A model generated the notes under the pieces. The model had not been told where the DNA came from and searched no databases. It saw only the letters and a list, made by a program, of their open reading frames with translations. This document shows positions 9,936 through 54,059 of a stretch of DNA of 64,000 nt, piece after piece. Each line of letters starts with the position of its first letter. Position 1 is the stretch's first letter. The stretch is taken from positions 47,345,296 through 47,409,295 of the forward strand of contig OY720346.1 in the NCBI GenBank assembly GCA_963082975.1, given 5' to 3'. A program made the translations under genes and the position numbers. This DNA is from Labia minor (Eukaryota > Arthropoda > Insecta > Dermaptera > Spongiphoridae).

Positions 9936-10825
9936 TCTCTTCAACTCTCATCACACCACCAAACCAAAGTGGAGCGGGAATAGTGAAAATACCCCTTAAA
10001 TCCCTACAACCCACCTTACCTCTACCTCCATACCCACCCACTCCATCTTCAATAAGATGGATTAATGGAAATCAGTGGATGCTACCACACGGAGGTTAAC
10101 CTACAAGAAAGAACCACCTCTAACATTAATATATTATTCACCAGTCCAATTAGAGAGATACGTTACACACTTTCCATGACAAATGATTTATAGTCTTTTC
10201 ATTTAAATTATTCAAATGATTAAATACATTCATACTATAAGAAGACGAAAAATTTTTACCATTTTTTATATATATATATATATATATTCTTATCTGGAAA
10301 AAAAGAAGAGGAACACACTAAAAAGCATCTCAAGATAAAAAAAAAGTGTAACAGTGAAATATGAATAAGCAGGAGCACAAAGTGAGAATATATTTAGATA
10401 TGTAGCTTCAACATTCACTTAAGCATATAATTAAGTAATTCACATTGAAAAATAGAACATTTTTTCATTTTAATCTTAACAGCAAATGGTATATTATTAA
10501 TAATACTTTCTTATCGTTTAAATAAATAAATTGACTTTTATACAAAAATGAATAAATCAAACATAATATATGTATATTAATAATTATCAGCGAAACACTA
10601 ATTTAATGATAATATTTATATAATAATAAAACAATTATATAATGATAATTTAATGACTTTATAAAATTATTAAAAATAATTTTAGAAATAATTTTAAATA
10701 GCTTTTCTAATATTATTATATTTGCAAAAATTTTATATACATATACTAGGTAAATATATGTAAATATACAATATATATAGATATATATAGCATATGTTTG
10801 CTATATTAATTCTAAACTTAAATAA
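9936..10825. other. C-rich flank then AT-rich DNA
   Basis: 9936-10080 is unusually C-rich on the plus strand (cattcattcattc at 9922-9934, then ccacc-type runs). On the minus strand it contains gaggtaagg near 10020, a possible alternative donor upstream of the island. From 10080 the sequence returns to AT-rich DNA with a TA run at 10267-10287. No gene could be supported. Confidence 0.4.
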
Positions 10826-12046
10826 GTTGACCTGTGGCCAGGTCCGAACCGACCGACGGTTTGAAGTAAATTAATTTCCAGCTACAGAAACAATTTCAAA
10901 TAATTTTCATATATCTATTAATGTAATAAAAAACAGATATGGATACATAAATAATAAATATAAACATTTTTAATTTTATTTTATTTATAATATATATGCA
11001 AGACCAGGCTGTGACGTCATGAATGGCTTGATGACGTCATATAATTTTAAATCAAGAAAAAACTAATAAATATGATTTTTCTCGAGGATAAAACCAATAC
11101 AAAGTGCATGATTCGTGGTGATATATAAAAAAATCTCCTTTGGTGTGAAAATAACCCTTTCCTTCCTATCGTCGATCGCTAATACTACCACTTCCGGTTT
11201 CCGGAATTGCACCAAAAGTTGCTCAATCCATCCCACTGATGCATTGAGTAAATATACAAAATTTCATCAAAATCCGTTCAGCCGTTCATGCTGTACACAT
11301 CTCTACGGACGGACGGACGGACAGACATCATGTTAAAAATACTTTTTTCTGTTAAGAAAATGCATGATTCGTGGAGATATGTAAAAATCTCCACATGTGA
11401 AATTTGGTGTGAAAACAATACATTCCTTACTATCTACAAACTGTCAATAATATCGGTGTACCAAATTTCAAAGTCCTAGCTTGATTAGTTTTTGAGTAAA
11501 TTTGCTTACAGACATTACATACATACATACATACATACATATATACATACATACATACATACATACATACATACACACACACAGACATAATTCGAAAAAT
11601 GGTATTTTCCGACTCAGGGAGGTCTACAACGTCAAGATCTATCGAAATCTCGAAGTCGAAATTTTTGACGATTCCAATACTTCCCTTATACGAAGTATGC
11701 GGGAAAGTAAAAATCTCCTCAAGTGAAATTTTGTGTGAAAATAACCCTTCCCTTCCTATCGTCGATCGCTAATACTACCACTTCCGGTTTCCGGATTTGA
11801 ACCAAAAGTTGATCAATTCATCCTACTGATGCATTAAGTAAATATACCAAATTTCATCAAAATCGGTTGAGCCGTTCAGGCTGTACACATCTATACGGAC
11901 GGACAGACGGACAGACGGACGGACAGACATCATGCTAAAAATACTTTTTTCTGTTAAGTAAATGCATGATTCGTGGAGATATGTAAAAATCTCCACATGT
12001 GAAATTTGTAGTGAAAACAATACCTCCCTTACTATCGTCGCTCCGT
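10826..12046 (+). mobile_element. A-family repeat, copy A1, chimeric with an F-family piece
   Basis: Starts with the head gttgacctgtggccagg and the subterminal repeat accgaccgacg (10848). It runs through the twin tgacgtcat block (11010-11040), two passes of the ccaaatttcatcaaaatc block and GGAC microsatellites (11307-11326, 11897-11925). It ends cgtcgctccgtaaaa at 12036-12050, a degraded form of the partner repeat cgtcggtcggt. Between 11435 and 11713 sits a piece of the F family ending tatgcgggaaagt. After it the distal half of an A element (from tctcct...) starts again, so the copy is duplicated or recombined. The frames at 11115-11336, 11288-11479 and 11823-12020 are translations of this repeat. 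Confidence 0.7.
11435..11713 (+). mobile_element. F-family fragment (F2) inside A1
   Basis: Contains the F-specific block ctagcttgattagtttttgag, cut here to its homology with 20180-20240, then a CATA microsatellite (11514-11572). The end module follows: tttttgacgattccaat, the arms acttccc...gaagtatgcgggaaagt, then aaaa. It is the 3' half of an F element. Its junctions with A sequence at both sides suggest recombination between repeats rather than a clean insertion. Confidence 0.6.
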
Positions 12047-12050
12047 AAAA

Positions 12051-13436
12051 AGACCCACAGGAATTTTATTTTAAATTCCTCTATTAAAGGGTTTTTAAAA
12101 TAAACAATCAATCTGTAAAGTAAAACTAATTTTAATTGTTTCTTCTTAATTAAAGAAATTAATAAAATATAATTAATGTTTTTTCAATAAACATCAAAGG
12201 ATAAAAAAACCAAGAGTTTAATTAAGATTTAAGCTGGTTTAAAAATCGAACTATAGTAAACATAATACTTAAATACTACATATATATGAATATTAAAATT
12301 AATTAATTCACAAATATATATTTATATACTTTCTATATTTATATTTAAAAGAAGGGATAAGAAACTCTTTTATCAAAGGAACAAACAAAAATTTGGCATT
12401 TTTAGGCAGGCCGTATACAAAAAAATCAACTTATTAAATTATTAAAACTTAAATATTGAATGGATAATTCACATAAGACATGTCTCTTTAATGGTCCCCA
12501 AAATCGTATCATTGTTGTAGCGATTATTATATTATCAGGTGACCCGCTAAAATTGTAGGATACCAAGAAAAGAAAATAATCCTATTATTATACTTGGCGT
12601 GTCGCACAAATTTGTATAGGCTCGCGAATTGATCATCCCTGTTTCGTTGTCTTATACTCTTATAGGGTTATATAAAGAAGCAATGTGTTGTTTATACTAA
12701 ATTATTAAATAAACAAATTCTAATAATTTCATTAAAATTATTTAAACATATAATATTTTTTCAAATTAAAATAAAGATTTATATAATTCAATAATTCTGG
12801 AAATTCATAGACCTAATATTAATCTATTATTTATTGTTTTTTAAAAAGTGGTAGAGAGAGAGTAGAGAGAGAGATACATATTAGAGGGACCAGAATTCAT
12901 CAGTTTTATTCTAAAAATTAATTAACTTTCCATTTTAAATATAAGTACCTACATGCTGATTGGTGATTTATAGATTATTTATGGACAATTGAATTGGTAT
13001 ATACGTATAAGAATTAGAATAGAGGAGAGAAAAGAATATATTATAATGAGCCAAACAATTAATTCTGAGTCTTTAGCAACATAATGCATTACGGCAGCTC
13101 GCGAACCACATTTGGTTGACTCTTTCGATATCCATGCAAAAATATTAATAATTATATTATTTTATTTCCTTATATTTCTCATTTCCACCTCCTATACATA
13201 TATTTGCATTTTATTTATTTTCAAAACTCAAATTATATTGCAAAAATTATATATTATCAAGCAATCAAAACTAAAAACAATCACCAGAGAACAAATTATT
13301 TATTTTAAACTCTCTCTAAAAATCAAATATATATATATATACGTCATCTTATTCAAATCAAACTATAAATAGCTTTTTTAGAGCATAGAAGTGCTGCTCG
13401 GAAAATAGATTTTAGTATTCAATAAGTAAAAAGAAT
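12051..13436. other. AT-rich DNA, no gene seen
   Basis: Includes a more mixed stretch at 12480-12680 with no recognised function and an AGAG stretch near 12853-12873. The 86-codon hydrophobic frame at 13112-13372 (+) is made of Ile, Leu, Tyr and Lys codons as expected of random AT-rich sequence, and shows no domain. Confidence 0.5.
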
Positions 13437-13872
13437 TAGCTGGAGTGTCTTCACTCGACTATCTCGAAATTTGAATTGGATTAAATAACATAATATATTA
13501 TATTTAAATTAAATTTAATCAATTATAAATTATAAATAATAAATATTAAACCAGCGCATGTTTGGCTTTTTGTTGATGGCACCACATCACGTGTTGGCGC
13601 GTGAGATTTGCAGTGTTAAAAAATTACTTCTGGTAATTTCAGCGAATCAATCAAGCTGAAATTCTATATATAGCAGTTTTATACAAATATTAATCATGTG
13701 AAAAATTATCAAACATTTATCTTTATTTTTACGGTCACTTTAGAGGAAAAAAAATCAAAACGTTGTAAGTAATGACCCTCTTCCGGTTGAGCTACATATC
13801 TCAAAAGTTGATAGAAAACTACGAATTTTGAATAATGCCCGTATACCAAATTTCATTACGAGATAGTAAAAA
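13437..13872 (+). mobile_element. B-family repeat, copy B1 (internally deleted)
   Basis: Head ggagtgtcttcactc is followed by subterminal repeat actatctcg (13458). The body contains gtgttggcgcgtgag and cttccggttgagctac, and the element ends cgagatagtaaaa (13859-13871). The CA microsatellite and the 3' hairpin preface present in B2 and B3 are missing: the body jumps from ccaaatttcatta straight to cgagatagt. It is therefore a shorter deletion derivative of about 430 bp. Confidence 0.7.
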
Positions 13873-14510
13873 GAATGAAAGAAAATTTAGTTTTATTCAA
13901 ACGAATCAAATATAGTGAATTTTATTAAAATATATATTATTTATCAAAATCAACATATTACCAAGTAAATAAATAAAGAATCCAATATATGGAAAGAAAT
14001 CGGGGTTTATGGAAAACATTTTTCAATAGTATATTTATTCCCAGTTTCATTCAAGCACAAAGCTAAGTTAACTTTCAAAACAAATATATTTTTGCTACTG
14101 AAAAAATTGTTTATAATATATGTATATGTAGGCAAATTACAAGAGAAAATTTAATCATAAGTTGTTGGTCTTTAAGAAAAACTTAAATAAATAAATAAAT
14201 ATATGAAAAGGAACAGCAAAAGCAAATTATAAGAAAATAATCGAAAATAAAAACAAAAATTGATTGTTTATATCAAATCATTTATTACTTGTTGGTGGGT
14301 AAGAGGGAACTATTTGTCCGTATTAGTAATTAAACGTACAAGAGGAAGAACTGGGCGAAATTCGTACTAATCTACTGTTGGAAATTCAATTGCATAATAA
14401 TAATAATATAATGTTGGTCAATTTTGGATAAAAATAAAAAATAATTTTTCGAATTTTCAAAATGTATATATATATATATGTTGGTTTAGGTTTCCGTGAA
14501 TGTTATTGTT
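13873..14510. other. AT-rich DNA, nothing recognised
   Basis: No gene or clear repeat was found. A TA run lies at 14465-14479, just outside the palindromic element that follows. Confidence 0.5.
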
Positions 14511-14914
14511 ATTATTATTATCAGATTTATCAGGGATATAATCACGTTTTTTTTGTGAGATTGTTTTCTCGACGTTTCGGCACCCATTTTGGCGCCATTT
14601 TCAAGAGATTATTTACTTGGGAGTATTTTCAGTTGGCCTCGGGCTGTTGTCCAGTGCGGACGTGTGCCGGTCTCAGGATTGCCCAGGATTCTTCGGAGCT
14701 CTACACCAACGTAGTGAGTACAAAACCACCCAACCTATCAACCCAAAATCCCGATATTAACCCTTGGTCACACAGACTAAGACCCAGAATCCCAAAAATA
14801 CTCCCACCTAAGTAATCTCTTGAAAATGGCGCCAAAATGGGTGCCGAAACGTCGAGAAAACAATCTCACACAAAAAAAATACGTGATTATATCCCTGATA
14901 AATCTGATAATAAT
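14511..14914. mobile_element. Palindromic element with Penelope-type termini
   Basis: Two arms of about 118 bp (14511-14630 and 14796-14914) are nearly perfect inverted copies. Each carries gccgaaacgtcgagaaaac next to ttgaaaatggcgcc. The spacer (14631-14795) holds less AT-rich sequence that continues an open frame (14462-14815, +) ending in ...SHRLRPRIPKILPPK. The gaaacgtcga / cattttcaag combination is typical of the ends of Penelope-like elements, where hammerhead-ribozyme folds are known. Here ggcgcc and ggtgcc can pair as a six-base stem directly before gaaac. The family name is inference. The arrangement is two inverted terminal copies around a remnant. Confidence 0.6.
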
Positions 14915-14934
14915 ATATATATATATAGAGAGAG

Positions 14935-15408
14935 AGAGTAAGGTGGGGTAAAGATCCGCAGTTTAATTTGGGATTGTTTTTGACCTTCTTATGAAAGATA
15001 CATTATAGGTTGAAACATCACCTGAACCATCTTATATGATAAGATCCCATATGAGTAAAATAAGAATAGAGAAGAGGCATTTAAATAAAATCTTGCACCG
15101 AATGCGGATTTTTGCCCAATTTAAATATTTTCATCAAAGTAACTTAGACAAAAAAATCGGTTTTCAATTTTTTATTTATGGTTATCAGTTTCCAATCAAA
15201 GATATTAAATAGTTCGAAAAATGAATTCTACAATTATAAGAAAATCCATAAATATTAGATGGAACTTGGCTCATTATATACAAATGGCTTCCAAAACGCT
15301 GTTGAATTTCGATGTGTCTTCTATTCTTGTTGTTATAGTTATTAAAATGATATCAATAGTACCAGTAGTTTTAATATGAGAGTTCTGCCCTCTGCCCCAC
15401 CTTACTCT
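14935..15408. mobile_element. Short TIR element (MITE-like)
   Basis: Outer inverted repeats agagtaaggtggggtaaaga (left, from 14935) and ctgccctctgccccaccttactct (right end 15408) match over at least the first 14 bases without mismatch. The ~474-bp element has no coding frame. It lies directly beside the Penelope-type palindrome, next to a GA microsatellite. The target duplication cannot be separated from the TIR because agagtaa is itself part of the symmetry. The superfamily is unknown. Confidence 0.55.
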
Positions 15409-17013
15409 TTATCGCCAAATTTTCTACTTACTAAAAGTAAGAAATAGTTTATAAAAACCTGGATTCGTTCATTAAATTAAAATCAAAACTTGGACATAAA
15501 AGACCTTTTAGACTCTCTCTTTTCAACTTTTCCAGCAAATAATATCTTTAGTCATATAATTGCAAATTATGAAGTTTTCTTTTCAAAAGAAAATTATTGA
15601 CTTATGTACACACTACTAAATCATCCAAATTATTATTTTCCAATTTTATGAGTTGATTTATATATCCAAACACTTTAGAAATGTTTCATTCATTTATTAT
15701 TATATCATACTAAAATCTTTCCTATAAAGAAGATAAATAAATATTCTAGCAAAAAAAACTTTTAGATAAACTCAAACAAAAAGAATAGTATAATAATATC
15801 GTCCGATTATTTTTCTAGATTACTTTTTCTATTGTTTTTCTATTGAATTATTTACTCTATTAAGAAAGCAAAAACTATCATCACTCGAAAAAACTACTAT
15901 TTGAAAAGATATATAATGTTTAAATGGTTAAGGGTTAAGGGGAAAAGGAGTAGATTTTCTGTAAAAAAAAAAGAATTCATAATTCCATTTAAATATTTCA
16001 TTTAAAATAAATTAAATTACCATATATATTCTATCCAATTTTAAATATATTTTTAATTTAATTTAATTTCTGATTTATCTGTTTTTATATATTTTTATTT
16101 TTATTTTTTAACAATATAATTGTTAATTATTATATTTAATTTATTTTTTTTTAAATAATATATTAAATGAATTACATTCTTACGTATTTAAATTTTATTT
16201 TATTTGTATAATTAGTTAGGATGTTATTTAAATTACAAATTAATTTAATTAAAAAGGTTTTTTTCTTCATATAATTTGTTCGTTTTATATAAATTAAATT
16301 TTACTTTTTATATACTGTATATATTCAAATTATTCATTAAAAATTATATTTTATAATTGAATTAAAGATTTTATTTTTGTTTAAAAAAAAAATTTAAAAT
16401 AAAAGCATTCTTAGAATTAGATCTGCTTTAAGTTATTGAGAATAAGAGTACTATAATTCATGTTTCAATCAATATAAGAATTTTATTAATCATTTTAGAT
16501 GGTATTCAGTCTATTTTATCAAATGACCTAAACTTGCTTTGACGACTTTAGTCAAGATAAACAAAGAATTTGATCACAATTTCTGTAAATTCGTGCTGAA
16601 CGATTGATAGGATCCACATTTCACTCTTTAGACATTTAACAGGCATCTATTTAAAAACATATACACATCTCCCAACACAACTTTTATTATATTGTTTTTT
16701 AACAAAAAAGAAAGAAAGGATAAACAAACTTTTGATGATTTTAAAAGACAATTAAAACCTCTTTCGAATATACGTAGGATATTTTACAAATGGCTAATGA
16801 TAATAAACAAATTTGAAATGTATAATATTTTGTATTTATTTATTTATTTTTTGTTCTTTAACATTAAACATCATTTAGAAAATAATAACAATAAATATAT
16901 ATATATATAATCCTTGAAGTATATAACATTCCTATGATATATGGATATAAGAAGAATTTCACAATCTATATATACTTTTCTAAATTAAGATTATACATTA
17001 CAAAATTAAGATG
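15409..17013. other. AT-rich DNA, no gene seen
   Basis: Low-complexity AT sequence. The frame at 16692-16910 (+) is lysine-, asparagine- and isoleucine-rich without a motif. A double ggttaaggg at 15925-15942 is too short to be a telomeric array. Confidence 0.5.
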
Positions 17014-17021
17014 GGTTAGAT

Positions 17022-17329
17022 CAGGGATGTCCAAACTTTTAATTTAATAGGCCACATAGCAAACTTAAATATTTAACTGGGCCGCAAAATTACCAGAATA
17101 TGTTAAGCCTAGCTAGTGAATGTCTCAAAACTTATGGAGATTTTTGGGGATAGAGGTGGTTTTTTGTTTTTGAATGTTGCAGCCTTTTTTTTATAGCCTC
17201 GAAGTTATAGGTCGCTTGCCGGACTGTGAATTCTTTAAAATTTAACTCCAAAATGAGTCGATAGTGGGCCGCATCAAAACTTTGAGTAGGTCGCAATGCG
17301 GCCCGCGGGCCGCGTGTTGGACATCCCTG
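17022..17329. mobile_element. hAT-type miniature transposon with intact 8-bp target duplication
   Basis: Starts cagggatgtccaaactttt and ends gtgttggacatccctg, so the TIR is cagggatgtccaa / ttggacatccctg. It is flanked by perfect 8-bp duplications ggttagat at 17014-17021 and 17330-17337. CAG...CTG termini with an 8-bp duplication are diagnostic of the hAT superfamily. The ~308-bp interior includes GC-rich gcggcccgcgggccgc near the right end and no transposase, so this is a non-autonomous copy. Confidence 0.85.
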
Positions 17330-17337
17330 GGTTAGAT

Positions 17338-18575
17338 GGACATGGAATGGAAAAAGAACTAATAATTTATATGTAAGAAAAATATTTGGAAAAGATCAAG
17401 TACTCCTGCATCGTCCCGATTTGTAACGTTTCAAATTTCTGTCGCTTAGAAATATTATAAAATTTCCATGTTGCGTCGATGAAAATTTGATTTACGTCGT
17501 TTTTAATATATGTATATGTTCTTGATTTATAAATAAGTTCAAAATAAATTAGAATAGTATTTATTAATAAAGTTTTATTATTTTTTGATTTTGGAACCAA
17601 TTATTAAAGATATATATGTATATGCAAATGTATGAAAAGATAGTTTCGATTTGCTTTATTCAAATTATCGTGTAGATTAACGACGTAAAGCAAGGCTCAA
17701 GTGTATAAAAGAAAAATTAAGAATTTGATGAAAATCGTTCAGAGTAGTGAAGAACTTTCTAGTTCAGTAGCACTATAGAATCATAATCGTATCTAATATA
17801 TAAACTTTCAAAAACAAAAAAAAGAATAAAGAAAATTAGGAAAATATTCATAGTTAGGGAATTTTACTGAACAAAATATTTAAAATTAAATCTTTTTGAT
17901 TTTCTTGTTGTCGACAGTGAAAAAATATTTTTTTCTAATCGTCCCTATTATGGATTACATTCACTTTCGATATTCTTTTATTTTGTCTTCCCTTCCGTGT
18001 AATTAGTATTTCCTTCGATCGTTTACCGATTGGTTTCTCTGCAAACAAACTTCATTCCCCCATTTCAGTCAAATGTCCTTGATATCGAATAATAATATTA
18101 TGTAAGCGGCTTGTTCTATGGACCAAAATCAGACTCATAGAATACACTATAAAAGGACATCAAGTTTTCATTTCCAATCCATTTCTAAACAAGAGTGCCA
18201 TCCAATAAGGATAGTAGGATTGTGTTATGTTTGCTTTATAAATTTAACTAAAGGCATAACTGAAGCGGAATTGTCTGAATGAGTTTGTCTATCATGGGCA
18301 TTCAAGGGTCATCCCTTTGTTTTTATCATAACTGTTCATCTCATTTATTGAGAAATACAATATAGATTATATAGAACAACATTTATTTATTAAATTTTAA
18401 TTAAATTTATTTTTATATACTTATTCATAGCTCTTAAAATTTGTTTAACAAAAATTAAAAATAATAAAAAAATATTAACTAAATATATATTAATACAATT
18501 ATTAAAAAAATTTAATAAATATATATATTATAATAAAAATAATTTACTACTAAGTTATATTTTATTTTAAAATAA
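17338..18575. other. AT-rich DNA with a weak core-promoter-like site
   Basis: No coding sequence is supported. At 18148-18155 a consensus TATAAAAG is followed 33 bases later by an initiator-like ccatttc (A at 18181). No convincing frame follows on the plus strand, so the promoter reading is weak. 17940-18300 is less AT-rich than the rest but gives no recognisable product. Confidence 0.35.
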
Positions 18576-19060
18576 GTTAACCTGTGGTCGGTCGTTTTGA
18601 AGTAAATTAATTTCCAGCAACAAAAACAATTTCAAATAATTTTAATATATCTATTAATGCAATAAAAAACAGATATGGATATAACATAAATATTTTTAAT
18701 TTTATTTTATTTATAATATATATGTATGACCAGACTGTGACGTCATGAATGACTTGATGACGTCATATAATTTTAAATTAAGAAAAAACTAATAAAGATG
18801 ATTTTCTCGAGGATAAAACCGATACCAAGTGCATGATTCATGGTGATATGTAAAAAATCTCCTCATGTGAAATTTGGTGTGAAAATAATCCTTCCCTTCC
18901 TAGCGTCGATCGCTAATACTATCACTTGCGGTTTCCGGATTTGCACCAAAAGTTGATCAATTCATCATATTGATGCATTAAGTAAATATACCAAATTTCA
19001 TCAAAATCCGTTGAGCCGTTCAAGCTGTACACATCTATACGGACGGACGGACGGACGTAG
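18576..19060 (+). mobile_element. A-family repeat, copy A2 (3'-truncated at microsatellite)
   Basis: Head gttaacctgtggtcgg, twin tgacgtcat block at 18735-18768, the ccaaatttcatcaaaatc block, then ends within the ggacggacggac microsatellite at about 19056. The 3' hairpin and cgtcggtcggt end are missing, so the copy is truncated or recombined at the microsatellite. Confidence 0.65.
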
Positions 19061-19735
19061 GGTATTAGTAGGGATTTAATTTATTAATTTGAATGATTTA
19101 TCATTGTTTGTAATTTTAATTGAATTTTAATACAATTAAAATGAATACTTATAGAAAATATTCGAAAATTAGGCAATTTATTCCAATTTATTATGATATA
19201 AAATCATATAATAATTTTCTTAATATATTTTTATTTTTAAACAAATTAGTTTTTAACCTCATTTAGTACTAACAATATATACTGTTGAAAATAATCCTTC
19301 GTTTTTGAACTTGAAAAATATCCACATGACTTTGAAAGGCGAATCAAACTGTTTAAGTCTCATGAGGAAATTCAATTTAAGTATGTATTTTTTTATTAAT
19401 TAAGATAAATTAATAAATAGTATTAAGAAATATTACAATCAAAATCAAGATTATTTCAAGGTGACTTAATTATTAGATTTCGGAATATATATTTATAGCA
19501 TACTATATATTTTTTTATATATAATAATATCTTAAAAACAATTTTCATTTTTTAAATTGATATAATATTCATTTAAATAGATAAAATTAAAAAACATTAA
19601 ATCTTAATTTCTATTAAAATATTAAATAAGTTTGACCTAATTTATGAAATAAATTCATATAATTATTTTTAGTATGATTTAAATAATTTAAATGATATTT
19701 AATTAATTAAAAACTTATAATAAATTAAATATTTT
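19061..19735. other. AT-rich DNA, nothing recognised
   Basis: No gene, RNA or repeat family could be supported. AT-rich throughout. Confidence 0.5.
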
Positions 19736-20028
19736 AATAATCCAGCCAATTGATAAAACATGAACAGTGGCTTCGAATTGAAATAGACATCAAATGAATT
19801 CTTATTAAATGTTTTATAATGAACATTAATTTATGGTTTATTCGAATTATATAAAAATCCTTAAAAAGTGTCATGCATCAGAATAATCTCGAATAAATAT
19901 AAAAATAGATTATATTATTATTTAGATTATCCCAGTATAAAATATAAAAGATAAATAAAAAAAATTTATTCTTATGTAATATATTGAAAAAAGATTTTTA
20001 TAAATTTATATAGAACTATATAATTTTA

Positions 20029-20632
20029 TTTTTACTTTCCCGCATACTTCGTATAAGGGAAGTATTGGAATCGTCAAAAATTTCGACTTCGAGATTTCGA
20101 TAGATCTTGACGTTTTAGACCTCCCTGAGTCGGAAAATACCATTTTTCGAATTATGTCTGTGTGTGTGTATGTATGTATGTAATGTCTGTGAGCAAATTT
20201 ACTCAAAAACTAATCAAGCTAGGACTTCGAAATTTGGTACACCGATATTATTCACAGTTTGTAGATTTCTATCAAAATTTCGTCAAAATCGGTTAACCGG
20301 AAGTGGTACTTTACCTACACTGGTTGCGTTTACCTTTCAAGTAAAGTACCAGTTTGCTTCGAGATATTTGCTTCATATTTTTTATATAGATTTAAAAATA
20401 TGAAAAAAATTCAGATAACAAATTTCATCATGATCTAACTACCGGAAGTGACATTTTACCTATACAAGTAGCGTTAGGTGTAAATTATAAATATATATAA
20501 TAGTGTTAAACCATTTTACTTTATAATTTAAATTAATTAGTTTGTTTATTTTTATTGTTGTTAAAACATAATAATAATAACCTAATTACCTATTTATATG
20601 CGGGAAAGTCTAGGGGAGGACACTCCCGAATT
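20029..20632 (-). mobile_element. F-family repeat, full-length copy F1
   Basis: In minus orientation it starts with head cgggagtgtcctcccctag (about 20610-20630), then 13-bp subterminal repeat actttcccgcata (20597-20609). Next come two accggaagtg...tttacct blocks, ccaaatttcgaagtcctagc, a CATA/CACA microsatellite (20160-20182), tttttgacgattccaat and a 3' hairpin. The second subterminal repeat tatgcgggaaagt (20034-20046) and then aaaa end the element. The two subterminal repeats are perfect inverted copies. The frames at 20006-20206 and 20164-20403 are translations of the repeat. Confidence 0.7.
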
Positions 20633-20833
20633 TTTTTGTTATTTATTTAATTTAAAAAAAATATTTTAAATTAATATTAAATAGAATAAATACATATGGA
20701 AGTTATATTATACGTATATAATTAAATGAAAAGAATGAAAAATTATTTTGTGACAATTTTACAATGATAATTGTGAGGAGTTGAGAGGGTTGTAATTGGT
20801 TATCGAGTTATAATAAATGATAATAAACCTTAC

Positions 20834-20919
20834 CCCGAGGTTGAATTTTGCCAGGAACAACGTCGCTCGCCGAGCTCCCTGGCTATGCGTGCGCACTCAC
20901 ACACCAACACCGATAGACT
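20834..20919 (-). promoter_or_regulatory. Candidate promoter and noncoding first exon
   Basis: On the minus strand tcagtc at 20921-20916 matches the arthropod initiator TCAGTY, giving a start near 20919. A donor gggGTAAGG lies at 20833/20832, so an 86-nt exon without any ATG would run between them. The surrounding 20840-20990 is sharply GC-rich. The whole block lies inside the 19.7-21.3 kb inverted-repeat region, so it could also be the promoter of a transposon or a captured host exon. No product can be assigned. Confidence 0.3.
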
Positions 20920-21508
20920 GACTACCGCTCGAGCGGCTGGCTAGGAAGGGCCCCTGGCATTTAGGCAACCCGCTGCGCTAGTTTCCAAATTTAAAATTTT
21001 CATATTTAAAGTACCTGGATTATCCAGCAGCCGCTCAGAAGTTTTACAATATATACTTTACTAACTGTTTTAATAATATTAATTAATTTTAATAATATTT
21101 ATAAATTTGAATTAAAAAATTGATTGAGTATATTGATTTATTATTGGTATTTTTATCTTATAATTAAATAATAATTATTTTTTATATATATACAATCTAT
21201 ATATTTATTGAATAAACCATAAATTAATATTTATTATAATACATTTAATAAGAATTCATTTGATGTCTATTTCAATTCGAAGACACTGTTCATGGCATGC
21301 TTCATCAATTAGCTGGATTATTAAAAAATATAAACTTTATGTTAATTTTAATCTCAATTTAAATTATCTAATTTATCAAGTAAAAGTTAACATTTTCATT
21401 CAATTAATGTCATTTTATCATATTTATTAAATTTTTTATATGAATTAAGAAAGTTATACACATTTATTTTAAATATATATCATTTGAAAAAATAAATTAT
21501 GTTTAAAT

Positions 21509-21851
21509 GGCCAGGTCCGAACCGACCGACAGTTTGAAGTAAATTAATTTCCAGCTACAGAAACAATTTCAAATAATTTTAATATATTTATTAATGTAAT
21601 AAAAAACAGATAAGGATATAACATAAATATTTTTAATTTTATTTTATTTATAATATATATGTAAGACAAGGCTGTGACGTCATGAATGGCTGGGTGACGT
21701 CATATAATTTTAAATTAAGAAAAAACTAATAAACATGATTTTTCTCGAGTATAAAACCAATACAAAGTGAATGATTCGTGATGATATGTAAAAATCTCCA
21801 CATGTGAAATTTGGTGTGAAAACAATACCTCCCTTACTATCGTCGGTCGGT
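21509..21851 (+). mobile_element. A-family repeat, copy A3 (internally deleted)
   Basis: Begins ggccaggtccgaaccgaccgac (subterminal repeat from 21531) and keeps the twin tgacgtcat block (21676-21704). It then jumps to the 3' hairpin ggagatatgtaaaaatctcc-like region and ends cgtcggtcggt (21841-21851) followed by aaaa. It lacks the GGAC microsatellite and the catcaaaatc block. Length is about 340 bp against about 640 bp in A4. Confidence 0.7.
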
Positions 21852-21879
21852 AAAAATAATATAAATTAGATTTAGAATA

Positions 21880-21965
21880 TAGTGAAACCTCAGTTTACGA
21901 ATTTTTTAGGTATCGTTCTGTCTTCTGTCTCAGTTTACAAGAAAAATTTAGGGTTACGAGAGGCA
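21880..21965 (+). mobile_element. pogo/Tigger-like end fragment
   Basis: agtgaaacctcagtttacga, followed by a second tctcagtttacaagaaaaa, resembles the ends of pogo/Tigger elements of the Tc1-mariner superfamily, which begin cagtgaaacctc with a repeated copy. No transposase or opposite end was found. It lies between A3 and a LINE fragment. Confidence 0.35.
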
Positions 21966-21984
21966 GGCATGGGTGTATGGGAGG

Positions 21985-22400
21985 GGTAGATTTTGAGTAT
22001 TTGAAAATAGGATTCTTCGCAGCATTTATGGACCAAAGAAAGATGAAGTAACCGGGGAATGGTGGAGACTGTATAACGAGGAATTGCATGACCTCTATGC
22101 ATCTCTATGCATAGTTAGGGTTATAAAATCGAGAAGGCTGTGATGGGCAGGGCACGTGGCTAGAAAGAGAGAAGAAAGAATGGTGAAAAAAATATAATGT
22201 TGGGGAGACCGATTGGGAAACATCCGCTTAGAAGACCAAGGACGCGGTGGGCGGACAATGTAGAAAGGGACATGAGAGAGATGGGAGAGGGTAGAGGTTC
22301 GATGGTTGTGGCTCATGATAGGGACACTTGGAGAAATGTGGTTACTGCGTCCAAGAACTTTCAAGTTCCGTTGAGCCACAGAGATGAAGTAGCATCTATT
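21985..22400 (+). mobile_element. LINE 3' coding fragment (same family as the 36.3-39.6 kb LINE)
   Basis: The translation includes the markers SRRL, GRPIGKHPL, RPRTRWADN and DRDTWRNVV, as in the C-terminal part of the minus-strand LINE at 36333-39590. The longest intact frame is 22197-22556. Upstream of it, changes of frame separate the EYLKIGFFAAF-like block near 21990. A small block downstream (22470-22545) reads FFKRKAKDTDDCEPTASRK in another frame, reminiscent of the start of hAT/ZBED-type transposases, but it is too short to classify. The reverse transcriptase domain itself is absent, so this is a 5'-truncated, decayed insertion. Confidence 0.65.
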
Positions 22401-22556
22401 AGGGTTAGTAATTTATGTGATGATGTTTCGATTGTTCATTACAACACCGTGTTACAAAGTTATGAATACAGGTGCTTTTTACAAACTTCTTCAAGAGAAA
22501 AGCTAAAGATACTGATGATTGTGAACCTACAGCATCTAGAAAAGTTAAAGTTATAA

Positions 22557-23084
22557 TGAAAAAAGTTTTGAATCTTTTGTGTATTCTACCGAGATACAGC
22601 AGAATGAAGTATTCAGCAGAAGCGATTAATTTTTGTTTTTTATATTACATTTGAATATATGAATCAATTATTTTCTACTGGTCTATTAAAGTTTTTTTTA
22701 GAATTTTGTATAATGTATTACGATCAGGATATTTTATTTAAATTCCAGTAAATTCATTTCTGTCAAGTCTTGCATCTATATATGAGTGAATGTTTTAATT
22801 TAAACATTATTTGTTTAAAAATGTACAAAAATTTAGCACATAGATTATCCAAAGAAATCTCTTCTGAATCTCTTCATTTCATTAAAAAATTCAAATTAAT
22901 TAATTTTTAAATTTAACTGACTGAGATTAATTTTTTAAGTTTATTAAAAAAATTTTTTTTTCAAAAATAATTTGTTATATTTGATTTAAAAATGTTAAAC
23001 AACCAGAGATGATAGATATTTAAAAAAATATATAATTCTTAGTATTCTTTCAAGTATTATATCTATAATATGGTTATCAGTAAT
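22557..23084. other. AT-rich DNA, nothing recognised
   Basis: No gene or repeat family could be supported in this stretch. Confidence 0.5.
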
Positions 23085-23290
23085 TAGGCCAACCGATATT
23101 GGGTTGTAGCTCCCTGAGGGTTCGTGTTCCGATTTTAATCTCCCATGAGGCGCGTGTTTTGGCGTGCCTTGTCGCGTCTGCACGCCTCCCTCACACCCCA
23201 GTACCACATCTGATTACGATGGGGCTAAACGACCCGCCTTGTTCCTAATATATCTTGGTTCGATACGCCTCTCCACAGCCAGAAACAATT
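23085..23290. other. GC-rich island of unknown nature
   Basis: About 200 bp of mixed, CpG-containing sequence in AT-rich surroundings. The 70-codon minus frame (22995-23207) has no recognised domain. On the plus strand an acceptor-like cctctccacag at about 23269-23279 precedes a short open frame (PETIEQIGSNRLKKKR...). It could be an unclassified SINE/LINE end or a host exon. I cannot decide. Confidence 0.3.
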
Positions 23291-23742
23291 GAACAAATTG
23301 GTAGCAATCGCTTGAAAAAGAAAAGAATAAAAAAGACATTTAAAGAGAGTGAGGGATGAATGAATGATAGATCTTTCTTTGAGAATTTAATAAATAATGA
23401 TTTTTTTTTATCTCAAATTCTTTAACTATCTATTTATATTTATGAAAGAAGAAAACAATAAGTTTTAAGAAGATATAATAATTATTTTTAAATATAGTAA
23501 TAAAAATGAGTTTTGATTCAAATATAATTAATAATTTTTCAATCAATTTTCATAAGGTTTGATTAGAATGAAAATAAATTAATTAATTTCAATTAAGCTA
23601 CACAATATACAATTTTATTTAAAAATAATTTTTAAAAAATCCAATCCGTATTTCAAATTGGCTAAGATATGTATACTACAGAATTCAAGGGTTCAGACAC
23701 ATCAATAAAAATTGATTTACTAAATAAAAATAAATAGAATAA
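23291..23742. other. AT-rich DNA, nothing recognised
   Basis: AT-rich sequence between the GC-rich island and A4, without supportable features. Confidence 0.5.
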
Positions 23743-24381
23743 GTTGACCTGTGGCCAGGTCCGAACCGACCGACGGTTTGAAATAAATTAATTTCCATCT
23801 ACAGAAACAATTTCAAATAATTTTCATATATCTATTAATGTAATAAAAAACAGATATGGATACATAAATAATAAATATAAACATTTTTAATTTTATTTTA
23901 TTTATAATATATATGCAAGACCAGGCTGTGACGTCATGAATGGCTGGATGACGTCATATAATTTTAAATCAAGAAAAGACTAATAAATATGATTTTCCCG
24001 AGGATAAAACCAATACAAAGTGCATTCGTGGTGATATATAAAAAAATCTCCTTTGGTGTGAAAATAACCCTTTCCTTCCTATCGTCGATCGCTAATACTA
24101 CCACTTCCGGTTTCCGGAATTGCACCAAAAGTTGATCAATTCATCCCACTGATGCATTAAGTAAATATACAAAATTTCATCAAAATCCGTTGAGCCGTTC
24201 AGGCTGTACACATCTATACGTACAGACGGACGGACGGACGGACGGACGGACGGACGGACAGAGATCATGCTAAAAATACTTTTTTCTGTTAAGAAAATGC
24301 ATGATTCGTGGAGATATGTAAAAATCTCCACATGTGAAATTTGGTGTGAAAACAATACCTCCCTTACTATCGTCGGTCGGT
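23743..24381 (+). mobile_element. A-family repeat, copy A4 (reference full-length copy)
   Basis: Head gttgacctgtggccagg, subterminal repeat accgaccgacg at 23765, twin tgacgtcat block (23929-23958), ccggtttccgg, catcaaaatccgttgagcc, then (GGAC)n at 24219-24260. The arms ggagat...atctcc and subterminal repeat cgtcggtcggt at 24371-24381 follow, then aaaa. This is the best-ordered member of the family. The 100-codon frame at 24098-24400 (-) is the repeat read backwards, with Arg-Pro-Ser-Val repeats from the microsatellite. Confidence 0.75.
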
Positions 24382-24390
24382 AAAAATTGA

Positions 24391-24981
24391 GTGTCTCCAC
24401 ACGACTATCTCGAAATTTGAATAGGATTAAATAACATAATATATTATATTTAAATTAAATTTAATTAATTATAAATTATAAATAATAAATATTAAACCAG
24501 CGCATGTTTGGCTTTTTGTTGATGGCACCACGTCACGTGTTGGCGCGTGAGATTTGCAGTGTTAAAAAATTACTTTTGGTAATTTCAGCGAATCAATCAA
24601 GCTGAAATTCTATATATAGCAGTTTTATACAATTATTAATCATGTGAAAAATTATCAAACATTTATCTTTATTTTTACGGTCACTTTAGAGGAAAAAAAA
24701 TCAAAACGTTGTAAGTAATGACTCTCTTCCGGTTGAGCTACATATCTCAAAAGTTGATAGAAAACTACCAAATTTCAATAATGCCCGTATAACAAATTTC
24801 ATTATTCTAGCTCAAACTGTATTTTAATAATCTTGTCTACATAAATACATAGACACACACAGACATTTTCCTCAACCTTAGTGAAAATGATTCAGGAACC
24901 TTCAAAACGTATAAAAACATCAAAATCTCAACATCGAAAATTTTCGTGATCGCAATACTATCTCTAACGAGATAGTAATAA
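24391..24981 (+). mobile_element. B-family repeat, copy B2
   Basis: Starts gagtgtctccacacg, then actatctcg at 24404. The body matches B1 and B3, followed by a short CA microsatellite (24845-24864) and cctcaaccttagtgaaaatg. The module cgaaaattttcgtgatcgcaatactatctc ends with subterminal repeat cgagatagt at 24968-24976. It follows A4 after only about 10 bases, and its normal 5' end ttagctg is missing, as if A4 had replaced or removed it. Confidence 0.75.
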
Positions 24982-25713
24982 TTTACAAAATGTCTACCCC
25001 GTAGTATTTTTTTAAACAAGATAAGAGGCAATTAATTTTTTCAATACCTGGGACTGATTTTACAATTTCTAAGACCCAATTAAACAGTTACTGAAAATAT
25101 ATAGAAACTAAAAAGAACCCAAATTGTTTACAAAAACAAATCAGTTTTCACCAGATACGCTGCACAATAGTAACCATGCTGATTTCTTGCCTCCCAGTGA
25201 CCTCACGATGTTTTCTCCTTTATTAATAATAGTTATACACTGATAATAATATCATTATCTCTGCTAGTATATTTTAAAGCTTGGATCTTTTAATTTTGTT
25301 TAATCAATTATTTTGGTTGAATTATTATTATTAAGTTTACTCTATGAGTGTCAATCAAATTTGATTTCGCTCTAAAAGAGACAACACGTCCTGATTAGTA
25401 TTATCAACTGCCCTACTCATATCTTTAATGACATTAGTCGACTGGACAATATAAACCATTATATTTGTCATTTTGATTTAGTAAATATGCCGTGTTTATA
25501 GTATACGAAGTAAATGATTCCAACTGGGAAAGTTAAAATAAAATTATATCTTAGAAAAACAATTTTATTTAGATATGAACTGATTGGAACGAACCTATTA
25601 AGTCTTTATTATAAATTCTATTATAAAAATTACTCGTTATTAAAACACCAAAAGAAATATTATAGCCACATATCATATATACTATAAATCCAAATTATTT
25701 AATAAAAAAAACC
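24982..25713. other. AT-rich DNA, nothing recognised
   Basis: No coding frame or repeat with support. Slightly less AT-rich between 25140 and 25400. Confidence 0.5.
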
Positions 25714-25914
25714 TCAGACTTTTGTACATCCTATGAAAGGACAACGCCCATCAAGTCGCTTGCCGCCTAAGCTGGGTAGAGGTGTTCTATGATCAGTAGA
25801 ACGAGTCCTCTCAACCTTGCAAATGATTAACCAAATAATGATAGTTGTAACATAAAAATAGATAGTAATAATAAGGAATAGAGTCAATATACAAATCTTA
25901 AAAATACAAAACAT
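25714..25914 (-). CDS. Small hydrophobic-headed ORF, possible secreted or membrane peptide
   Basis: A 66-residue frame. About 35 N-terminal residues are almost entirely hydrophobic (MFCIFKICILTLFLII...). The distinct polar tail contains a GGKR dibasic site followed by LDGRCPFIGCTKV, two cysteines four residues apart, then a stop. An attaaa polyadenylation-type hexamer lies just downstream on the minus strand. The layout resembles a peptide precursor, but the hydrophobic part is also what random AT-rich sequence yields. An acceptor-like tttgcaag at the start of the polar part suggests that only the tail may be a true exon. I do not recognise the family. Confidence 0.25.
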   Translation of the reverse strand: MFCIFKICILTLFLIITIYFYVTTIIIWLIICKVERTRSTDHRTPLPSLGGKRLDGRCPFIGCTKV

Positions 25915-26350
25915 TTAAAAATACAACAAATTTAAAATGTAAAAAATTCAAAGGAGATTAATATCCAAGGTTAATTTAAAATAATGTTGCAATCTGTTAG
26001 CCTGATATGCATAAAAGGGGCCCATTCATCAAAATTCTGATCAATGAATATTAAAATTAAAATCTATAAAAATATTATTTTAAAGACTAACAATAAAATT
26101 ACATAACAACAAATTCTATGATCGTTAGGCATCTCCAAACAAAGCGACAATCATAAAATCGAGGAGATACGTGGTTTGAATAGATAAAGAATGACTAGGG
26201 GAAGTTAGTTTATAGTTAAACCAATTAAGAAACAACCATGAAGGTTTAAGGATTAAAGAGGGGCTTCAAGTTCAGAAGCGTTACAGAGATAGATAGATAG
26301 TACTTAGTTATAACATTGAAAATTATTTTATTCAAAAAATATATTTTTGT
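25915..26350. other. AT-rich DNA, nothing recognised
   Basis: No gene supported. A short GATA repeat lies at 26290-26301. Confidence 0.5.
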
Positions 26351-26470
26351 ATTTTTGAAGTGAAACTTCTTTAGCGGCGTCCTGACATTTGGTTGAGAAT
26401 GGAGAGTGAATTGAAAAATTGAAATTTCGTAACGCGTTACGAAACGCAAGAGAGAAAAAAGATATAGATA
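26351..26470 (+). repeat. G-family repeat head and 20-bp perfect palindrome
   Basis: tttttgaagtgaaacttctttagcggcgt (26351-26380 region) recurs at 53400-53430. Its gaagt/acttc halves form a hairpin. Downstream at 26425-26444 is a perfect 20-bp palindrome, TTTCGTAACGCGTTACGAAA, unusual in GC content for this window. Confidence 0.55.
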
Positions 26471-26494
26471 TAACGAGTGAGAATGAGATAGCCT

Positions 26495-26635
26495 CTATCT
26501 CCGTCTCTCTTTTGTGCGGTGTTTCGTTCTTGAGAGAGAGGCTATCTGGGTCTTTCTTTTGTCCGGTCTTTCGTCTTTGAGAAAGAGGCTATCTGCGTGT
26601 TGCTTTTGTGCTGTCTTTCGTTCTAATACCCTCTC
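26495..26635 (+). repeat. 47-bp minisatellite, three copies
   Basis: Three head-to-tail units start at 26495, 26542 and 26589, each beginning ctatct and containing cttttgt then gg/ct-gt-tttcgt. Units 1 and 2 are exactly 47 bp, and unit 3 ends near 26635. The units diverge by roughly a quarter. The array is followed by a 14-bp palindrome gcgcgcatgcgcgc at 26655-26668 and then directly by B3. Confidence 0.7.
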
Positions 26636-26691
26636 GCTAGGTCCAAAGTCCATGGCGCGCATGCGCGCTAGTTAAGTCATATATAATTAGC

Positions 26692-27151
26692 TGGAGTGTC
26701 TCCACTCGACTATCTCGCAATTTGAGAATTGGATTAAATAATATAATATATTATATTTAAATTAAATTTAATTAATTATAAATTATAAATAATAAATAAT
26801 AAATATTAAATCAGCGCATGTTTGGCTTTTTGTTGATGGCACCACGTTACGTGTTGGCGCGTGAGATTTGCAGTGTTAAAAAATTAATTCTGGTAATTTT
26901 AGCGAATCAATCAAGCTGAAATTCTATATATAGCAGTTTTATACAATTATTAATCATGTGAAAAATTATCAAACATATATCTTTATTTTTACGGTCACTT
27001 TAGAGGAAAAAAAATCAAAACGTTGTAGGTAATGACCCTCTTCCGGTTGACCTACATTTCTCAAAAGTTGATAGAAAACTATGAATTTTGAATAATGTCC
27101 ATGTACCAAATTTCATCATTCTAGCTCAAACCGTTTTTGCGTAATCTTGCC

Positions 27152-27197
<46 letters not shown>

Positions 27198-27317
27198 GAC
27201 ATTTTTCTCAACCTTAGTGAAAATGATTCAGGAACCTTCAAAACGTATAAAAACATCAAAATCTCAACATCGAAAATTTTCGTGATCGCAATACTATCTC
27301 TGGCGAGATAGTAAAAA
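26692..27317 (+). mobile_element. B-family repeat, copy B3 (reference full-length copy)
   Basis: Head gctggagtgtctccactcg, subterminal repeat actatctcg at 26709, body with gtgttggcgcgtgag, ccaaatttcatcattctagc, (CA)n at 27161-27193. Next comes cctcaaccttagtgaaaatg, and the 3' module gaaaattttcgtgatcgcaa, then subterminal repeat cgagatagt at 27304-27312 and aaaa. Together with B1 and B2 it defines the family at about 600 bp. Confidence 0.75.
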
Positions 27318-27578
27318 TTGATATTTATATATATATATATATATATATCGTGAAATAATTAAAATTCTCAAGTCAAATATACAGCGTGCACGCATACCGA
27401 CGCATGTAATTGTGTGTGTGAACATGGTCGGCGATTCACACGCCAACACATACAGTTATGTGCGTCGATGACCATTCACGTTATTTATCCGAATCTCAAC
27501 ATTACTTTAACACTACTAAATCGATTTAAAATTATTATTGCATTTAAAACTGCTTTTCTCTACTCCACAGATTTCACT

Positions 27579-27983
27579 ATGCCGAAAAAAAATAACGACC
27601 AAAATTTAGACGATATTATTTATTTCATACACCGTTCACTACTGGTTTATAGCCACACAGGTGCTAATGCACTTGAACGAGGCGAAGATAAAATCCCTCT
27701 AATTCTCGGGGGAGATTTTAATGTAAATTTTGGATCTGATGATTCGTTGCCGTTGATCAACTTTCTTCAAGAAACATTTGGTCTGCTTATAAATAACGAT
27801 CCCAAGGAATCAACAACAAAATCTGGAACTACAATAGATGCTGTTTTTACACGTTATATAGAAAATGTCGAATCACGAACATATATATCTTATTTTAGTT
27901 ATCACAAGCCATTAATATCAGTATTACCAATTGAAGCACCAACCGACAATAGTACAGGCAATGTAGATATGATGATAGAGTAG
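27579..27983 (+). pseudogene. Endonuclease/exonuclease/phosphatase-like domain, possible Helentron remnant
   Basis: The frame opens further upstream, but the recognisable protein starts near MPKKNNDQNLDD (27579). A tactccacag acceptor-like site ends just before it, at 27570. The key block IPLILGGDFNVNFGSDD has the GDFN signature of the endonuclease/exonuclease/phosphatase superfamily. It is followed by ESTTKSGTTIDAVFTRY and then SYFSYHKPLIS, where SDH-type domains carry the catalytic histidine. The TT..GT.ID..F.R...S.YFSYHKP pattern is, from memory, that of the endonuclease domain at the C-terminus of Helentron Rep-helicase proteins of arthropods. Rep and helicase parts are absent here, so it is a fragment. 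It lies 260 bp after B3. A stop TAG (27981) and aataaa follow. An unrelated host nuclease is the alternative. Confidence 0.55.
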
Positions 27984-29048
27984 ATAATAATAATAATAAA
28001 GCGAATATTTGTTACGAAAATTTTATACTGTTATATGTCTTTCGAAATGATCCCTTTATTTTTCTCTATTTCTCTCTCACTCACACTCTCAACTAAAATT
28101 TATCTTATTCTCTAGATTGTAAGAAGTTTCACTTCCGCCACGTGTACGATGCTGCACATTTTGCTTTTTTTTTCAAATAAGTATTTTAATTATAAAACAA
28201 TTTTATTTAAATTAATTAATATTTTATGTGAGTATTTTGACATTGTATATATAAATAAAATAATAGAGCGTAAGCTCAATGGGAAAATACTAAACTACTG
28301 AACTTGAGGACGAAACTTATCAAAAATTTTAGAAAATATGATTTTAATGTGGAATAATTAAATTTTCAATTAATTTATAAACTGGCTAATATAGGCTTAG
28401 AACCAATAAAACAAAACAAATATGAAAAAATGAATATTATTCATATTATTATTATGTCAAAATTAATAAGTATATAAATTATTTTCTTTATAGTTTAATT
28501 TCAAGTAAATTAAACTAGAGAGATGCTTATTTTCCTTTTTTAAGTAAATTAAAATAAAACATCTGCAATATATAATCATTCTTTTTGTTTTTCTTTTTAA
28601 AAATATTATTATTATTATTATATATTTTATATTATTATAATATTATTTTCTTCAATTTTGAAGATTTATATCTTAAAAAGATGTTGAAACTTCACAATAG
28701 AATTCACTGCTATCTATAGTGGAATATTAATGGAACCTATATAAAAAGCACATTTCTTTATTCAATGTAAGTATATTTTTCATTTTTTTTTTCCTGATAT
28801 TTTTCCTATTTTTTTTTTTTATTTTTTCTTCATCTTGTTTACCGTTTTCTTCATTTCCCCAGTCTATTTTCTATTTTCATATTAGATGCTGTCATTTTTC
28901 TTCATTTTTTTTTGCTATTTTATCTAAGAAATTTTTTTTCTTTTTTTATTAAATTTTATAATAATTTTTTATTTATGTTTTTCATTTTGATAAAATATTA
29001 TTATGTATATGATTTAAATAAAAAAAAATTAATAAATTAATATATACA
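27984..29048. other. AT-rich DNA with pyrimidine-rich tract
   Basis: 28070-28100 is a CT-rich stretch and 28770-28960 a long T/C-rich tract (plus strand). No gene supported. Confidence 0.5.
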
Positions 29049-41773: not shown

Positions 41774-41859
41774 ACTACCCTTTAACTAATTTATACAATT
41801 TATTTTTAAATACTTTAAAAATTTTACTATTATTTATTGATTTTAATTTATAATTTAAT

Positions 41860-41942
41860 TAATTAAATTTAATTTAAATATAATATATGATAATTAATAC
41901 AATTCAAATTGCGAGATAGTCGAGTGGAGACACTTCAGCTTA
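41860..41942 (-). mobile_element. B-family 5' fragment (B4)
   Basis: In minus orientation ctgaagtgtctccactcg, actatctcgc (41916-41933) and the AT-rich start of the B body. It is only the first ~80 bp of a B element. Confidence 0.6.
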
Positions 41943-42400
41943 AGTATTTAAAAATAATTATAACAAATAAAATAGATAATTTTTAGGAAAGATGAGAGAA
42001 TTTTTATCACAAATACATTCCAAATAGTATCTAGTATTATTTAATAATTATTTTACTTATTTGGGTATAAAAAATAATAATTAAAATCAGAACATTTTGT
42101 ACAGGATATTAACAAGATAATAATGAAATATTAACGTTGAAGGAGGTACAGGGGGGCGAGGCCCCATTTCTAGTTTTGAAGATCGTAGCTAGTAAATAAC
42201 AAGTAAAATTGCCTGGTAGTTTTACAAAATTAATTTAATGTTTTTTTTTTGTATTTTAAAAAAAAGATAATTCGATAAGTAAAAAAAAATATTTTTTCTA
42301 ATTGGAGATTATTAATATTTAATTGTAATAGAAATATATTTTTTCAGTAAGTAAGTGATTTTCTCTACCATATTATTTGTTCTTTGTATGTAAAATGCAG

Positions 42401-51575: not shown

Positions 51576-51687
51576 GAATATTAAATATATAATTTAATAT
51601 TATCAGCCAAAACCATAAAAATATCTTTTGTTTAAACTGAATTGTTTAACTTAAAAATTGATTCAATACTGTATGAAGTTATATATA

Positions 51688-53890: not shown

Positions 53891-54059
53891 GCCAGTCCCA
53901 CGACTGCCAATTTTGCTTTTTTAATTCCGAAAAGCTGCAAAGCACGTTTTTTTGTCTTTAGTTTGTTTTATAACCACTTGGGGCGCTAAACAGTTTTTCA
54001 AAAAAACACTATAGAAAAAAAATATATGTACCTATATATTATATATTTATGTATTATTG
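53891..54059. other. Mixed to AT-rich DNA
   Basis: Follows the G2 end with a less AT-rich stretch (53891-54000) and no recognised feature. Confidence 0.4.

Follow-up and report, generated by a model that had tools for sequence, protein, structure and literature searches.

Derivatives of Helentrons have been reported from many invertebrate genomes (PMC4067079; papers are cited here by PubMed Central number, and statements about them refer to the parts of each that were available to us). The HINEs described from Metaseiulus occidentalis and Culex have a palindromic subterminal inverted repeat (subTIR) at the 5′ end and an inverted copy together with a palindrome at the 3′ end, insert into T-rich TT targets without duplication, and derive by deletion from elements encoding a Rep, helicase and endonuclease (Rep–Hel–EN) protein whose Rep motif reads RGSPH (PMC4067079). 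This motif is the signature of Helentron Reps in the same source. Here we analyse three repeat families, A, B and F, found in a 64,000-nucleotide (nt) stretch of the genome of the dermapteran Labia minor (contig OY720346.1, positions 47,345,296 to 47,409,295; hereafter the window), which share these features, the 5′ subTIR being perfectly palindromic in B and imperfectly so in F. The window has a G+C content of 26% and its genome (G000) is assembled into 71 contigs totalling 604 Mb. Each of the three families almost certainly consists of non-autonomous Helentrons, rolling-circle elements that are HINE/DINE-1-like, and we infer that they move in trans.

The window contains the copies A1–A4, B1–B4 and F1–F2 (Table 1), all built on one plan. 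This plan runs in the direction opposite to that of an earlier sequence-only reading of the same DNA, because the coding relatives described below fix the orientation: the ‘head’ of that reading is the 3′ end, carrying subTIR and stem-loop, and its ‘invariant’ GTAAAA end is the 5′ end. Read in the reversed sense, an oligo-T flank is followed by AC and a subTIR of 9–13 nt, the interior has a microsatellite and then a core of about 80 nt, and the 3′ end comprises the inverted subTIR, 1–4 nt, a stem-loop and a tail whose last four letters are TATT or AATT. The subTIR lies directly 3′ of the T run and measures 11 nt in A (ACCGACCGACG), 9–10 nt in B (ACTATCTCG) and 13 nt in F (ACTTTCCCGCATA). The second hairpin noticed earlier corresponds to this subTIR; it is a perfect palindrome in B, an imperfect one in F and hardly one in A, where folding is weak (A4, −2.8 kcal/mol; A1, −0.1 kcal/mol). 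The microsatellites are GACG/GTCC in A4, AC/GT in B3 and TACA in F1, and the 3′ stem-loops are GACCTG/CAGGTC, GAGTG/CACTC and GGGAG/CTCCC, with perfect stems of 5–6 bp in A4, B1, B3 and F2. Seven of the eight window copies that retain the 5′ end have GTAAAA, B2 having GTAATAA, and the terminal A/T run is mostly target sequence.

The architecture of A, B and F is real and lies far above chance. The window was scanned for the plan, defined as at least four T directly before a 9-nt arm with at least four G or C, an inverted copy of the arm 150–3,000 bp further on and a stem-loop after it; these thresholds were chosen with the families already seen. Four places were found (A4, B1, B3 and F2), against a mean of 0.010 and a maximum of 1 in 200 dinucleotide shuffles, and no place in the window qualified when the stem-loop had to precede the T run. 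A weaker scan that dropped the stem-loop and required arms of at least 10 nt gave 22 rows, several of them other repeats, against 2–15 in 20 shuffles. A chance origin was rejected on both scans. A search of Rfam returned no matches.

On the evidence of alignment, the bodies of A, B and F are homologous and the three families form one superfamily. Strict alignment of B with F scored 127, against a null maximum of 44. Under soft scoring of the core region, A scored 23 with B3 and 25 with F2, which none of 1,000 shuffles reached (maximum 18), and 18 with B1, which one of 1,000 reached. Under strict scoring, A does not rise above the null with either B or F. Within the core, the motifs GAAATTT(G/T)GTA and ACCGGAAG are exactly 67 nt apart in A4, B3, F2 and three coding relatives, the first motif sitting +176 to +209 from the 5′ end in these six sequences. 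In sequence collected from the window and fetched loci, the first motif has 44 distinct occurrences, many in copies of the same families; the second motif follows at 67 nt in 28, at another distance in 4 and not within 160 nt in 12. That families with different subTIRs share a core whose spacing is fixed at 67 nt is a new observation. Five core strings of the window gave no matches in literature text; in viral contigs, a 16-nt core string had 52 loci, about the number expected by chance on a rough estimate and not used, and a longer core string had none.

Copies of A and B are very numerous. The exact 3′ end of A (30 nt) occurs 13,380 times in the genome and that of B (28 nt) 12,113 times, with no occurrence of either backwards control, and the 18-mer CCAAATTTCATCAAAATC occurs 21,810 times. 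Insertion sites were studied in 38 distinct two-ended copies from the window and fetched loci (22 B, 11 A, 2 F and 3 of a further family, H); the search demanded TT before the element, and most B copies came from 30 loci fetched by the exact 3′ end. Among the copies listed, the 5′ flank is TTTT in 34 of the 38. Three clean empty sites, one each for A, B and F, show neither duplication nor loss. An A inside another A (L053) reads ATACTTTTT–element–TCTGTT, compared with ATACTTTTT–TCTGTT when empty; an F inside a B (L097) reads TTAATTTTT–element–TAACAC, compared with TTAATTTTT–TAACAC; and a B (L116) lies inside a repeat that is also found in L092 and in the window (85% identity; Table 1). The remaining rows among those listed are low-identity AT-rich matches or the neighbours B2 and A4 and were not used. 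In a fourth case, an H inside a B (L135), about four T’s are gained with no other repeat; varying numbers of T’s have been reported for Helentrons (PMC4067079). When flanks were joined within the window alone, no empty site was clean; one AT-rich match next to A3 was not counted.

Coding relatives of the families are present in the same genome. PF14214 gave 104 Rep matches, 30 of which were taken as loci: 18 have the canonical RGLPH, four (L086–L089) have RGSPH and eight have no motif in a frame of at least 250 amino acids (aa). RGSPH is present in the Reps of the B, A and F partners, reading RGSPHEHIF in those of A and F. The B partner is on the minus strand of contig C1, within 47,859,300–47,875,299, and spans about 12.2 kb, both B ends included. 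It consists of a 5′ end in which TTTTT directly precedes ACTATCTCGCCAGAGATAGT, the B core, an open frame of 2,181 aa and the B 3′ end; B3 matches it at 94.8% over the first 505 bp and at 100% over the last 38 bp. The protein of this B-type gene (L093, G000:C1:47863894-47870436) has Pfam matches to DUF6570 (E = 1.3e-11), Helitron_like_N (1.3e-23) and PIF1 (1.9e-31), and a match to Exo_endo_phos_2 (0.0013 with the full-length protein, 6.5e-5 with the piece) that is below the curated cut-off. Compared with the genome, the protein gave 34 matches; 22 of 1,836 candidates were scored, and among these the B-type gene is the sole match that covers the whole protein without stops. An A-type relative (C1:55.787–55.798 Mb) is 40–51% identical and has an endonuclease match, with an A 5′ end, 89–92% identical to A, about 2.1 kb upstream of the Rep–Hel–EN gene. 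An F-type relative (C1:44.7016–44.7059 Mb) is 57–60% identical, also with an endonuclease match, and is immediately preceded by an F 5′ end that matches at 95.8% over 545 bp. A Rep–Hel gene at 66.55 Mb of contig C2 was considered as a partner and rejected, being 52% identical and having no searched A, B or F end string in 14 kb. Two further RGSPH Rep–Hel genes (L091 and L092) have open frames of 1,785 and 1,754 aa with no endonuclease motif seen in frame and are Helitron2-like. Seven RGLPH Helitron Reps (L067–L073) have identical scores and open frames of 1,537–1,652 aa, which looks recent.

The end plan, the T–T sites and the Rep–Hel–EN relatives support the assignment to a Helentron-type (HINE/DINE-1-like) superfamily that the sequence-only reading had made. 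Its expectation of insertion between T and T without target duplication agrees with the single empty site that each of the three families provides, none of which has a duplication of fixed length. The autonomous Rep-helicase partner with the same ends that it envisaged was found for B, with both ends. No partner with a DDE transposase turned up, no search having been aimed at one.

Several observations weigh against the Helentron reading. For A and F, the envisaged partner was found with its 5′ end and gene but without the 3′ end. The A-type gene has internal stops and is split into two blocks about 5.5 kb apart, and no A 3′ end was found up to 3.5 kb past the endonuclease match; the F-type gene also has internal stops, and its 3′ end was not found in an element cut by the neighbouring B-type copy. 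The endonuclease matches are under the Pfam curated cut-off. In the B partner, a 2.1-kb fragment of A-type leader intervenes between the 5′ end of B and the gene. Contiguity links this gene to the B ends, as does another B-type copy (C1:44.694–44.701 Mb), in which B leader sequence adjoins the gene directly, without the A-type fragment. Strict alignment scored 38 for A with B (null maximum 41) and 31 for A with F (null maximum 40). The 5′ flank is TATT, not TTTT, in 4 of the 38 copies listed. The borders of B1 (13434–13867) carry an 11-bp direct repeat, ATTCTTTTTAC, which is probably a chance occurrence beside the T run. Finally, the 3′ subTIR of mite HINEs is 38–60 nt from the end (PMC4067079), compared with 23–27 nt here.

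We propose that a Rep–Hel–EN protein would nick both the oligo-T target and the element end, recognising the subTIR of its own family, and would unwind one strand and stop at the 3′ subTIR and stem-loop, after which the copied strand would be joined into the T run. SubTIRs are known as recognition sites and would act as such here. The short copies would be internal-deletion derivatives, moved in trans by the protein of their own family. Another arrangement, which we consider unlikely, is that a single Helentron protein, for example that of the open B-type gene, moves A, B, F and H promiscuously through the core and not through the subTIR. The core is kept across families with different subTIRs, the B-type gene alone among the scored matches covers the whole protein without stops, and the 150 scored copies of H are at least 99% identical with no frame longer than 247 aa, all of which this arrangement would accommodate. 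However, A- and F-type genes exist, and therefore each family had its own source. Descent from Helitron2 elements, which lack the endonuclease, is less probable still. Helitron2 elements have been described as inserting between TTTT and T or C and as having hairpins and asymmetric inverted repeats (PMC5148889), and the genome has RGSPH genes with no endonuclease motif seen in frame (L091 and L092), but among the few RGSPH genes whose ends were read, all three partners (B, F and A) have an endonuclease match, that of B being below the Pfam cut-off. Miniature inverted-repeat transposable elements of cut-and-paste DNA transposons, with the subTIRs as terminal inverted repeats (TIRs), would also be short and high in copy number with inverted repeats near both ends and could explain the direct repeat at the B1 borders; this reading was rejected on the empty sites of A, B and F without target duplication. 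Also against it are the asymmetry of the inverted repeats, the 3′ one having a stem-loop on its outer side, and the Rep–Hel–EN genes of the relatives that share the leading ends of B, A and F. Canonical Helitrons (5′ TC, 3′ CTRR, insertion between A and T), whose RGLPH motif is present in 18 of the 30 Rep loci, were rejected as the drivers of A, B and F by termini that read AC...TATT/AATT instead and by empty sites between T and T.

A new feature, predicted from sequence comparison, is a putative C48 (SENP8-like) protease domain at the end of the B-type protein, possibly a new variant. The last 201 aa match Peptidase_C48 with E = 7.5e-4 (19.8 bits, cut-off 20.7) and SENP8 in the PDB with E = 0.004, the HW, DS and QQN-DCG positions being aligned. 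The stretch recurs in two degenerate copies, at C1:44.694 Mb (97%) and C10:37.190 Mb (77%), and the sequence read downstream of the A and F partners showed no DCG motif. Helentrons with OTU and VTD proteases are already known (PMC4067079, PMC9741609); a literature search by title found no C48-bearing Helentron, which does not prove absence. We tentatively suggest that Helentrons repeatedly recruit proteases of the ubiquitin system, with C48 perhaps stripping NEDD8 or SUMO from the transposition complex, and that the core may be a cis module for a step besides end recognition, such as transcription or assembly.

A fourth family, H, is represented in the window by H1 and a shorter relative (Table 1). 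The span of the sequence-only reading extends into H1, which contains the nested B3, and also includes the chimeric A1. On its 3′ side, H1 has a subTIR copy and then ...ATTTTGC before a T run. When the window was searched for Rep, helicase or endonuclease remains (with the B-type protein, and with Pfam on seven frames), the one match to the B protein was the endonuclease fragment of H1, which matches Exo_endo_phos_2 with E = 0.0021, below the curated cut-off. For the endonuclease piece, 1,449 first-look candidates yielded 150 scored matches, every one at 99% or 100%, and the longest open frame among the 150 is 247 aa. L135 repeats H1 together with the nested B3 (99.3% over 1,829 bp, with other flanks), as does L112 (98% over 1,593 bp), and therefore B3 is carried along within H1. 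In L134, a relative of H, no B occupies the corresponding place. H1 is a new endonuclease-only derivative that has been amplified with a nested B copy and has recently multiplied. Scans with the endonuclease protein gave 4 pattern matches in viral contigs and 51 in wider genome contigs, with no relative in either.

Table 1. Features of the window, with the C48 domain of the B-type locus L093 (positions of the window unless a locus is named).
Feature	Position	Strand	Description
A1	10821..12046	-	Chimeric HINE-A: 5′ half of A, ~280 bp from the 5′ end of F (F1), after which A resumes just inside its subTIR and runs to the 3′ end
F1	11432..11708	-	HINE-F 5′ part, entering A at oligo-T; without 3′ end
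B1	13434..13867	-	HINE-B, 5′ region partly deleted; both ends kept
A2	18577..19057	-	HINE-A, 5′-truncated at GTCC microsatellite; damaged 3′ stem-loop
F2	20034..20632	+	Complete HINE-F; subTIR ACTTTCCCGCATA, imperfectly palindromic
A3	21508..21851	-	HINE-A, truncation in 3′ stem-loop, shortened body
A4	23738..24381	-	Complete HINE-A, 644 bp; subTIR ACCGACCGACG; 3′ stem-loop GACCTG-GCCA-CAGGTC
B2	24385..24976	-	HINE-B; 3′ end abuts T run at A4 5′ end
H1	26357..28164	+	Helentron derivative: palindromic subTIR GAAGTGAAACTTC, 47-bp tandem repeats, nested B3, frame with endonuclease second half
B3	26685..27312	-	Complete HINE-B, 628 bp; nested in H1, amplified with H1
H1 endonuclease fragment	27543..27980	+	146 aa; GGDFN, TTIDAVF, FSYHKP; open frame 27363-27980
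B4	41833..41944	+	HINE-B, 5′-truncated; 3′ end with subTIR and stem-loop
H2	53405..53916	+	Shorter H1 relative by its ends; subTIR GAAGTGAAAACTTC, strong 3′ stem-loop
K1	55089..55461	+	Candidate further HINE: subTIR AACGAACTTAAGT, TCTGTCGT microsatellite, weak 3′ hairpin; relative at 59580-59697
Empty site of L116 HINE-B	59682..59781	-	Repeat copy, CATTTTT/TCTTTA
C48 domain	L093:595-1197	-	Putative; C-terminal, fused to Rep–Hel–EN protein

The chimeric A1 (A–F–A) and the abutting B2 and A4 could fit either read-through of an end or nested insertion. Stretches at 2360–2550 and 5139–5256 resemble part of the A body. A family ‘C’ (2221–2560, 52665–53130, 60170–60800 and 62030–62546) at first appeared HINE-like, but its core-like stretch points the opposite way; by eye, it has a tRNA-like segment, as in short interspersed nuclear elements, beside a TTTTTTTACTGTC stretch. 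Also recognised by eye were an inverted-repeat element at 51680–52201 (TIR ATACAGGGTGTCCCAAAATG) with a mariner-like frame inside, a hAT-like miniature element (17023–17335), a long inverted repeat (14513–14915), a miniature element with GTAAGGTGGGGTAAA ends (14925–15410), a Mutator-like frame (37295–38065) and reverse transcriptase frames of the type without long terminal repeats (45802–47690).

In kind, A, B and F are an ordinary finding, and their end plan is the published HINE plan. One genome here holds three HINE families together with coding relatives that have the same leading ends, A and B each with more than 12,000 exact ends. Having the families and the coding relatives together makes the pairing of subTIR with Rep, the role of the core and that of the endonuclease at T runs testable. 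Compared with the HINEs of M. occidentalis and Culex (PMC4067079), the subTIR sequences are different and that of A is hardly palindromic; the mite HINEs are described in the available part of that source as having no conserved core, whereas a core is present here. Drosophila DINE-1/INE-1 (PMC2374699) is similar in having 13-bp subTIRs, a conserved core of more than 90 bp, a block A that contains a GTCY microsatellite, a stem-loop a few nt past the 3′ subTIR and TT insertion; it differs in that several families with different subTIRs coexist here, and the cores are likened by description. Cg_HINE of Crassostrea gigas (PMC7492417) shares the many HINEs per genome, the GTCY-type microsatellites and the oligo-T targets without duplication. 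According to the available part of that paper, coding Helentrons could not be related to HINEs there, whereas here coding relatives have both ends of B and the leading ends of A and F. FoHeli of Fusarium, of the Helitron2 type (PMC5148889), similarly has asymmetric, hairpin-forming inverted repeats, the 3′ one tens of bp before the end, but its terminal sequences differ from those here and Helitron2 proteins are described, in the parts available of PMC4067079 and PMC5148889, without an endonuclease. Lastly, the Helentrons with VTD or OTU deubiquitinases (PMC9741609) resemble the B partner in combining Rep–Hel–EN with a ubiquitin-system cysteine protease; they differ in that the C-terminal domain here matches Peptidase_C48/SENP8, another protease family, and the C48 domain would thus add a protease class to those known from Helentrons.

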